64,000 nt of DNA, taken from assembly GCF_029851875.1 (NCBI RefSeq), contig NZ_JARKVC010000020.1, positions 1-64,000 of the forward strand, in the 5' to 3' direction. The DNA is from Actinomyces sp. (GTDB taxonomy: Bacteria > Actinomycetota > Actinomycetes > Actinomycetales > Actinomycetaceae). Under the pieces are notes generated by a model, which was given only the letters and a program-made list of their open reading frames with translations, made no database searches and was not told the DNA's origin. This document shows positions 27,088 to 28,594 of this stretch, piece by piece (positions within the stretch are counted from its first letter, which is position 1; the number at the start of each line of letters is the position of its first letter). The translations under genes were made by a program, and so were the position numbers.

Positions 27088-28284
27088 TCACAGGCGCTCG
27101 GAGGCCAGGCGAGCGCCCTCGGTCAGCGAGGCGAGCTTGGCCCAGGCGATGTGGGAGTGGATACGCCCGCCCAGGCCGCAGTCGGTCGAGGCCACGACGC
27201 GCTCGGGCCCCACCAGATCAGCAAAGCGCGTGATGCGGTCGGCCACGAGCTCGGGGTGCTCGACGACGTTGGTCGCGTGGGAGACCACGCCCGGGATGAG
27301 GTACTTGCCCTCAGGCAGCTCGACGTCCTTCCAGATCTTCCACTCGTGCTCGTGACGGGCGTTGGCGGCCTCGAAGGTGAGCCCGTTGGCCCTCACGCTC
27401 AGCGCCAGGTCCACCACGTGGCGCAGCTCCAGGTCGGTGGAGTGCGGTCCGTGCCACGAGCCCCAGCACACGTGGTAGCGCACGAGGTCGGGGTCGATCC
27501 CCTCCAGGGCGTGGTTGAGGGCCTCGATCCGCACCGCGGAGAAGCGCCGGTAGTCCTCGACAGGGGGCTCGACCTTGAACTGGTCCCAGGACTCCGTCAG
27601 GTCAGGGGCGTCGATCTGGACGGTGAGGCCGGCGTCCGTGATGGCCTTGTACTCCTCACGCAGGGCCTTGGCCCAGGCCCACACGGCCGCCTCGTCGTCC
27701 TCGTAGTAGTAGTTGCCCACGCGTGCCGCCGCCGCCGGGCTGATGGAGGCCACGAACCCCTCGGACACAGGCCTGCCGGCCTTGCCCAGCGCCTCCTTGA
27801 GGGAGGCGATGTCACGGGCGACGGCCTCCTGGCCGGTGTAGGACAGCTCGCCGGTGAGCACCGGGAAGGACCAGGGACGACGTGTGGCCAGGTGGATACC
27901 GGAGGTGGGGTCGGAGTAGGCGTCGGCGAAGGCGACCCAGTCGCGACGGTCGGTCATCGCGTCCAGCTCGAGCCTGCCGGCGGGGGTGGGCCTGCGCGCA
28001 GGCAGCTCGTCAAGCAGCTCCAGGCCGGAGAAGCGGGTGAAGGAGTAGGACCACCAGGCGCCGTAGTCGACCTTCTCGGTCATGGCGTGGCCGTACTCGC
28101 CGTCGTTGACGATCGTGATGCCCAGCTCAGCCTGCCTGGCGACCACCGCATCGGTCTCCCGGCGGACGACGGCGGCCAGGTCCTCGTCAGACAGGGCGCC
28201 GGTGGCGTGGTCGGCGTTGGCCTTGAGAAGGGTGTCGGTGCGGGGCAGGGAGCCGACGTGGGTGGTGCGGACGGAGGTGGTCAT
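27088..28284 (-). CDS. MetE C-terminal domain-like methionine synthase
   Basis: Cobalamin-independent methyltransferase of the UROD/MetE barrel type, comparable to the C-terminal half of MetE alone. N-terminus VRTTHVGSLPRT is typical, and the zinc ligands are recognisable as HVC (in RYHVCWGS), a Glu in FEAANARHEHE and a Cys in STDCGLGGR. No N-terminal MetE barrel is present, so the methyl donor may differ from methyl-THF-glutamate. Start moved from 28299 to the ATG at 28284, which has AGGA at good distance; 398 residues. A SAM riboswitch upstream supports a role in methionine supply. Confidence 0.87.
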   Translation of the reverse strand: MTTSVRTTHVGSLPRTDTLLKANADHATGALSDEDLAAVVRRETDAVVARQAELGITIVNDGEYGHAMTEKVDYGAWWSYSFTRFSGLELLDELPARRPTPAGRLELDAMTDRRDWVAFADAYSDPTSGIHLATRRPWSFPVLTGELSYTGQEAVARDIASLKEALGKAGRPVSEGFVASISPAAAARVGNYYYEDDEAAVWAWAKALREEYKAITDAGLTVQIDAPDLTESWDQFKVEPPVEDYRRFSAVRIEALNHALEGIDPDLVRYHVCWGSWHGPHSTDLELRHVVDLALSVRANGLTFEAANARHEHEWKIWKDVELPEGKYLIPGVVSHATNVVEHPELVADRITRFADLVGPERVVASTDCGLGGRIHSHIAWAKLASLTEGARLASERL

Positions 28285-28342
28285 GAGTGGTCCTGTCATT
28301 CCTGCGGCAGGTGCCGCGGTGGCTGAGATGAGGGGACCGGAA

Positions 28343-28355
28343 CCGGCAGGGCCGG
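28343..28355 (-). other. Small hairpin between uORF and metE-like gene
   Basis: CCGGC-AGG-GCCGG, a 5-bp stem in the 96-nt gap between the uORF stop and the MetE-like start. Together with GCGGC/GCCGC close to the ribosome site it could form part of an expression platform. This is suggestive only. Confidence 0.3.
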
Positions 28356-28380
28356 CTGGGGGCTGAGACGTCCGGGCGCC

Positions 28381-28479
28381 TCAGCGGCACATGACCACCC
28401 CTGCCACGCCAGCGGGCGTGGGCAGGGGAGCCTCCGTCCTGACGGTGCAGCAGGCGCTGCTGCATCGGCTGGTGGTCAT
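28381..28479 (-). CDS. Small upstream ORF / leader peptide with Cys codons
   Basis: A 32-codon ORF, too short for the track. It begins at ATG 28479 with GGAAGGA as ribosome site and ends at TGA 28381. The first part reads MTTSRCSSACC and a further Cys stands near the end, four Cys in 32 residues. Its ribosome site overlaps the 3' strand of riboswitch helix P1. Cys-rich leader peptides in front of sulfur genes are known in mycobacteria and Streptomyces; here the case is inferred from position, codons and ribosome site. Confidence 0.6.
   Translation of the reverse strand: MTTSRCSSACCTVRTEAPLPTPAGVAGVVMCR
28398..28428 (-). other. Strong hairpin inside the 3' part of the uORF
   Basis: CCCCTGCCACGCC pairs with GGGCGTGGGCAGGGG (13 bp with one bulge, 3-nt loop). 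It has no T-rich tail. Ribosomes on the uORF would cover it, so translation of the uORF could decide whether it forms; this is inference. Confidence 0.45.
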
Positions 28480-28490
28480 CAGGTGTCCTT

Positions 28491-28578
28491 CCATCGGCCC
28501 TGGCGGGAGCACCGGGCCGGCAGAGCCGGTCGGTTGCTGCGGCGTCGAAGAGCCAGGTCTCTCAGCCGCTCGGGATGG
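28491..28578 (-). promoter_or_regulatory. SAM-I (S-box) riboswitch aptamer
   Basis: The minus strand matches the SAM-I core in order: helix P1 CCATC/GATGG closing the element, GAGCGGCTGAGAGACCTGGC with the kink-turn, CGCAGCAACC (consensus GGCAACC), P3 CCGGC-TCT-GCCGG, the junction GGTGCT, and a short P4 CCC/GGG. It senses S-adenosylmethionine. It lies upstream of a MetE-like enzyme, the expected regulon. The 3' strand of P1 contributes the first bases of the uORF ribosome site (GGAAGGA), which points to translational control of that uORF. No classical terminator with T tract follows. Confidence 0.88.
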
Positions 28579-28588
28579 CTACGACGGC

Positions 28589-28594
28589 AGGATA
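28589..28594 (-). promoter_or_regulatory. Promoter -10 before the SAM riboswitch
   Basis: Minus strand TATCCT; a start near 28582 would begin the transcript a few bases before aptamer helix P1. No clear -35. Confidence 0.45.

Follow-up and report, generated by a model that had tools for sequence, protein, structure and literature searches.

A SAM-I riboswitch, an upstream reading frame and a second conserved RNA element precede a MetE-like gene in Actinomyces

The leader of a MetE-like methionine synthase gene combines a SAM-I riboswitch aptamer with an upstream open reading frame (uORF) and a second conserved RNA element, here called R1, that overlaps it. The aptamer and R1 are secure as sequence findings. 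Folding models suggest that the leader may act as a two-stage switch, in which translation of the uORF is gated by SAM and in turn activates translation of the MetE-like gene; we consider this reading to have an even chance of being right. The leader was identified in the window, i.e. the whole 64,000-nucleotide stretch of Actinomyces DNA that was analyzed. All of its features lie on the minus strand, in the order TATCCT, SAM-I aptamer, GGAAGGA, 32-codon uORF, 96-nt spacer, and 398-residue MetE-like gene.

The SAM-I aptamer and the uORF

The aptamer (28488-28581) matches the SAM-I family RF00162 over its full length, with a cmscan score of 49.8 bits, above the gathering score of 44.4 (E 2e-8 for the window). 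The initial annotation had recognized this aptamer by eye and proposed an Rfam scan, which bears it out. The target is also typical: the downstream gene belongs to PF01717, and the pairing of SAM-I with a metE-like gene recurs in 14 Actinomyces loci. The aptamer presumably binds SAM. Just upstream, a -10-like hexamer, TATCCT, can be read by eye (28589-28594); no full sigma-70 consensus was detected. At the other end, the 3' strand of SAM-I P1 (GAUGG) leads straight into the uORF ribosome site GGAAGGA (28486-28492), as initially described, with the first GG of the site inside the P1 strand.

To place this arrangement in context, all 103 SAM-I matches in 49 Actinomyces genomes were surveyed, of which 102 sites were usable. 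Of the 102, 95 have an ORF of 150 aa or more that begins -5 to 20 nt past the aptamer, mostly at 4-8 nt and with a mode of 4-5; the 95 include two loci (L013, L065) whose counted ORF overlaps the uORF in a different frame. On this basis, translational SAM-I control with P1 abutting the ribosome site appears to be the rule in the genus. Metabolic gene and aptamer are directly adjacent in eight of the 14 metE-like loci (L058, L060, L079, L081, L086, L091, L102, L103), where GATGGAAGGA leads into the ATG or GTG of the metE-like gene itself; these leaders appear from their sequence to control the gene directly. In the other six (the window, L036, L051, L013, L065, L055), a site of the GATGGAAGGA type leads into a uORF and the metE-like gene lies about 200 nt downstream. 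Given the sister loci in which the homologous site drives the metE-like gene, initiation of the uORF is very probably under SAM control, and the earlier proposal to this effect gains strength from both the 95 sites and the eight direct loci. One detail counts against such gating: SAM-bound P1 would cover only the first GG of GGAAGGA.

The uORF (28381-28479, stop codon at 28381-28383) encodes MTTSRCSSACCTVRTEAPLPTPAGVAGVVMCR in 32 codons. The same uORF is present in nine other Actinomyces genomes, in frame every time, and is open from its start codon to the same UGA in 10/10 homologues; the reading frame, whose conservation among relatives had been put forward as a check, is therefore kept. Its length varies by whole codons (30, 31, 32, 33 or 37), whereas the spacer from stop codon to gene ranges freely over 96-107 nt. 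Variable sites are spread evenly over the three codon positions (7, 8 and 6 of 19). This flat distribution indicates that the RNA rather than the peptide is under constraint, and a conserved peptide was rejected on the same ground. No matching leader-peptide family was found in NCBIfam or Pfam. The uORF is presumably translated and, as judged from the alignment, it is the path of the ribosome through it that is kept and not the peptide.

SAM-I also abuts a conserved 32-codon uORF (MLLRLPSTDV...MPGAART) in two further genomes (G015 and G048; loci L016 and L017). This uORF contains no Cys codons, is unrelated in sequence to that of the window, and lies about 285 nt upstream of an apparently full-length metE, an assignment based on the N-terminal sequence and not on a profile search. 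As the two sequences are unrelated, uORFs gated by SAM-I upstream of methionine synthases may have more than one origin.

A second conserved RNA element

The initial account did not notice a conserved RNA element that lies partly within the uORF and also occurs without SAM-I. This element, captured by the 113-nt covariance model R1 (28332-28444; 104.8 bits in the window), overlaps the uORF together with its stop codon and comprises helices P1-P4 and a possible pseudoknot. P1 pairs GGACGG with CC-GUCC. Its 5' strand lies in the 9-mer AGGACGGAG (28432-28440), which is invariant at 9/9 columns in ten sequences, and its 3' strand in UCCGGUCC (28334-28341), a segment that also includes the candidate pseudoknot partner and is invariant at 7/8. 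The P2 hairpin CCCCUGCC...GGCAGGGG (28398-28428) is the strong hairpin noted earlier in the 3' part of the uORF; its proximal 7 bp are invariant (14/14 columns) and its distal part is variable (5/17 columns invariant). It is followed by the junction J2/3, GGUGGUCAUG (28390-28399), which contains an invariant CAUG and is fully complementary to the gene start, CAUGACCACC (28285-28276). P3 (28362-28385) includes the uORF stop codon and forms 9 bp with 100% of cells paired. Its loop, CCGGA (28371-28375; 5/6 columns of the loop region invariant), may form a pseudoknot with UCCGG at 28341-28337. Among members, this candidate joins CCGG[A/T/C] to [T/G/G]CCGG, such that one pair covaries (AU in seven, UG in two, CG in one) and the remaining four are constant. 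In P4 (28341-28357) the distal part varies freely (0/22 columns invariant) and one pair is changed on both sides.

An invariant core with variable distal P2 and P4 is the pattern of a structured RNA. In the R1 alignment 97.6% of cells are paired, compared with about 41-45% when the partners are slid. Covariation is modest among the ten members, with four pairs changed on both sides and equally high values in 21/500 shuffles; since P1 and four of the five pseudoknot pairs are invariant, covariation cannot test these.

R1 is found in 10 of the 49 Actinomyces genomes (98.9-119.4 bits), in one copy each and always with a metE-like gene downstream. The leader stretch between SAM-I and the gene is homologous in all six loci that have both SAM-I and a uORF. 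In Actinomyces denticolens, Actinomyces gaoshouyii and two other genomes (G016, G042), the uORF and R1 occur without SAM-I and the uORF has its own ribosome site. Loci of this kind (L111, L115, L116, L219) have a small hairpin beside that site, CCACC/GGTGG or, in L219, CACC/GGTG, near the probable transcript start. Searches of 213 genomes of the family, 396 of the order and 397 of the phylum returned no R1 outside Actinomyces, with strict filters that may miss remote relatives. The sole extra match, of 27.4 bits, lies inside a recG-like coding frame and was taken as chance. Likewise, R1 was absent from 94 other metE-like loci, and comparison with Rfam 15 gave chance-level matches only.

Between the uORF stop codon and the ATG of the MetE-like gene at 28284 lies a gap of 96 nt that holds P3, P4 and P5, which accounts for the gap with small hairpins described in the initial annotation. 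P5 (GCGGCA-cc-UGCCGC; 28304-28317) precedes the ribosome site of the gene, AGGACC (28289-28294). This site pairs with GGUCC in the minimum-energy fold, and the GGUCC of the UCCGGUCC segment is complementary to it. The gene itself (27088-28284) encodes a Meth_synt_2 protein of 398 aa (PF01717, E 2.4e-15) that falls under every NCBIfam equivalog cut-off and is 95% identical to its homologue in Actinomyces urogenitalis DSM 15434, which places the genome of the window close to that strain. There is a further in-frame ATG at 28299; homologues align to the start at 28284. In some genomes metE-like paralogues stand in tandem, three in G026 (L110) and two each in G011 (L109) and G037 (L147), and SAM-I and R1 precede the first copy only.

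Predicted coupling and competing explanations

In the proposed switch, binding of SAM would close SAM-I P1, the 3' strand of which overlaps the uORF ribosome site, and the uORF would not be started; in the absence of SAM it would be translated. With the uORF untranslated, J2/3 GGUGGUCAUG and UCCGGUCC would block the metE-like gene by pairing with its start codon and Shine-Dalgarno (SD) sequence. On arrival at the uORF stop codon, inside P3 and beside J2/3, a ribosome would strip J2/3 from the gene start and so permit translation of the gene. High SAM would hence turn methionine synthase off, in agreement with the direct control in those sister species whose leaders are without the insert. Neither the peptide nor its cysteines would be the signal.

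Several folding results are consistent with this coupling. The uORF, gap and gene start together fold far better than shuffled sequences (z -6.0, 0/200), and in the folding ensemble J2/3 is the pairing partner of the gene start. The complementary run between them reaches 10 bp in the window, as do 0.5% of shuffles. Across the urogenitalis group it is 9-10 bp, a length that no more than 0.5% of shuffles attain, and haliotis, G026 and gaoshouyii have 7 bp. In partition-function calculations, the unpaired probability of the gene AUG rises from about 0.00 in the untranslated leader to 0.69-0.94 once a ribosome occupies the uORF stop codon in five of the six SAM-gated leaders, and from 0.01 to 0.86 in gaoshouyii. 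No shuffle (0/60 for each opening leader) matched this change. Of the six SAM-gated leaders, four still open when the aptamer is included in the fold, as does that of gaoshouyii.

Other results count against the coupling. The J2/3-gene start run is only 4-5 bp in AC-20-1, denticolens, G016 and G042, four leaders show little or no predicted opening of the AUG, and the haliotis leader stays closed once the aptamer is included. Minimum-energy folding is uncertain at this G+C content, and these folds leave out the pseudoknot and kinetics. In addition, the GGUCC/GGACC pairing with the gene SD was given little weight as evidence, because neither side varies and relatives that lack R1 have AGGAC ribosome sites as well. 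The structural coupling and its sign, as modeled here, could about equally well be right or wrong.

The alternative that survives best is that R1 itself binds a metabolite and, as an orphan riboswitch arranged in tandem with SAM-I, frees the gene SD by capturing UCCGGUCC in P1 and the pseudoknot, with the uORF as the path of the ribosome through R1. This explanation, which we regard as possible but somewhat unlikely, fits the conservation of R1 better than simple coupling does, and both may be true. It would explain why the junctions, P3 and the 3' strand are invariant while distal P2 and P4 are free to vary, and is in keeping with the candidate pseudoknot, the occurrence of R1 without SAM-I and its retention before metE-like paralogues of 53-67% protein identity. 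Forcing P1 in folding also raises SD accessibility in every leader. There are precedents in the tandem SAM-I/AdoCbl riboswitches before metE (PMC9481103) and in the metE B12 aptamer of Mycobacterium tuberculosis, which contains a translated ORF (PMC11260477). Set against this are the restriction of R1 to one genus, its lack of an Rfam relative, the need for the ribosome to unfold it, and a P1 too invariant to give a covariation test. Vitamin B12 or AdoCbl was rejected as the second input: the cobalamin riboswitch RF00174 was found neither in the leader (up to E 5) nor in the 49 genomes, and no MetH protein scored above cut-off in these genomes, which makes such an input unlikely. In its most specific form, the 113-nt R1 would represent a new class of riboswitch that senses a methionine-cycle metabolite and is traversed by a uORF under SAM-I control; this we propose tentatively and think rather improbable. 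If true, the SAM-I aptamer would decide whether ribosomes may unfold a second aptamer.

Rho-dependent polarity is a much less likely explanation. Here the C-rich untranslated leader would serve as a Rho site, transcription would end before the gene, and translation of the uORF would shield the RNA. The spacer after the stop codon is indeed C-rich (44 C and 26 G of 96), no intrinsic terminator-like site was detected in the leader, and coupling of riboswitches to Rho has been discussed for mycobacteria (PMC11260477). However, the spacer is itself highly structured, and polarity leaves the invariant nucleotides unexplained.

The initial annotation read the leader as two-level sensing, by SAM and by cysteine supply. 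The SAM level is very probably right and a second layer of RNA control exists, but cysteine supply as the second signal is not supported, and this part of the reading is probably wrong. The uORF has four Cys codons, three of them within six codons, as described. Such a cluster is rare within the window: among its ATG ORFs of 25-45 codons with an SD-like site, the uORF is the only one with at least three Cys codons in six, and of 167 such ORFs three have at least four Cys, two of the three as nested starts of the uORF frame. The three-in-six cluster is kept in three genomes of the urogenitalis group, the first Cys is common to the window, haliotis and G026, and Cys-rich leader peptides are known from Actinobacteria (PMC1262725). 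Yet the ten homologues have 4 (window), 3, 3, 2, 2, 1, 1, 1, 0 and 0 Cys codons, which are missing or placed elsewhere in the other five members. With the frame kept and the Cys codons lost, one half of the condition that the initial annotation had named for its refutation applies. In the window, the first three Cys codons fall in an 8-bp hairpin, P0 (28446-28464; folding p 0.02 against shuffles), whose two strands are UGCAGCAG and CUGCUGCA, separated by cgc. All homologues have a hairpin at this place with a different sequence, singly significant in the urogenitalis group only. Since UGCAGCAG and CUGCUGCA pair, the Cys run is most simply the P0 stem read in frame, a by-product of the hairpin, although a Cys role peculiar to this lineage is conceivable. 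The intrinsic terminator/antiterminator pair expected of a Cys attenuator is also absent from the leader; Rho-dependent or translational forms would be compatible with this. Attenuation, in which cysteine starvation would stall ribosomes at these codons and refold the leader, was accordingly rejected as highly improbable, as the codons are unconserved parts of a hairpin and, in the folding model of the urogenitalis group, the gene start stays occluded when a ribosome is held on codons 5-12.

Comparison with known systems and significance

The proposed SAM-gated, uORF-coupled switch shares parts with several known systems. It resembles other SAM-I (S-box) riboswitches of RF00162 in the sequence and structure of the aptamer and in its methionine gene target, but the start codon here directly follows P1 with no separate terminator, and the first target is a uORF. 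In the met operon of Xanthomonas campestris, a translational SAM-I riboswitch likewise has a second input in its expression platform. That system differs in using an anti-SD/anti-AUG hairpin and in binding uncharged initiator tRNA, and the part of the report consulted describes no uORF (PMC7270179). In M. tuberculosis, B12 riboswitches with uORFs are present at metE and ppe2, and expression of ppe2 requires its uORF (PMC11260477). The metE system there also places a riboswitch and a translated uORF before a methionine synthase gene. The ligand is B12 rather than SAM, coupling at ppe2 occurs through an overlapping stop and start, and there is no second conserved RNA (PMC11260477). In tandem SAM-I/AdoCbl riboswitches, as here, a second structured RNA stands between SAM-I and a MetE gene; the second element of the window is instead a non-cobalamin one that overlaps a uORF and is absent from Rfam (PMC9481103). 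Finally, the Cys-rich leader peptides predicted in Actinobacteria are similar in being short ORFs that contain a Cys cluster and precede a sulfur-metabolism gene, and dissimilar in that the Cys codons of the present uORF are unconserved and the cluster is not near the stop codon (PMC1262725). In the open-access literature, we found no report of a SAM-I riboswitch that controls a uORF through another conserved RNA.

A further element was observed in Alloscardovia. It is a near-invariant RNA of about 82 nt with four helices, located around 1255-1337 in L138 and present also in L139 and L142, in a single copy in each of three genomes. It lies about 150-200 nt upstream of metE-like genes that are 77-82% identical to that of the window. 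The closing stem shows changes in both strands, and nothing in Rfam matches the element.

R1 is a concrete example of a conserved RNA not yet listed, located upstream of a methionine synthase gene in a genus that yielded no cobalamin riboswitch and no full-length metH. Taken as a whole, the leader seems to be a natural device whose riboswitch acts on the gene by determining if ribosomes pass through a second RNA switch. The two halves occur separately in sister species, SAM-I directly on the gene in some and R1 with the uORF but without SAM-I in others. The logic of the device can as a result be dissected by swapping natural leaders.
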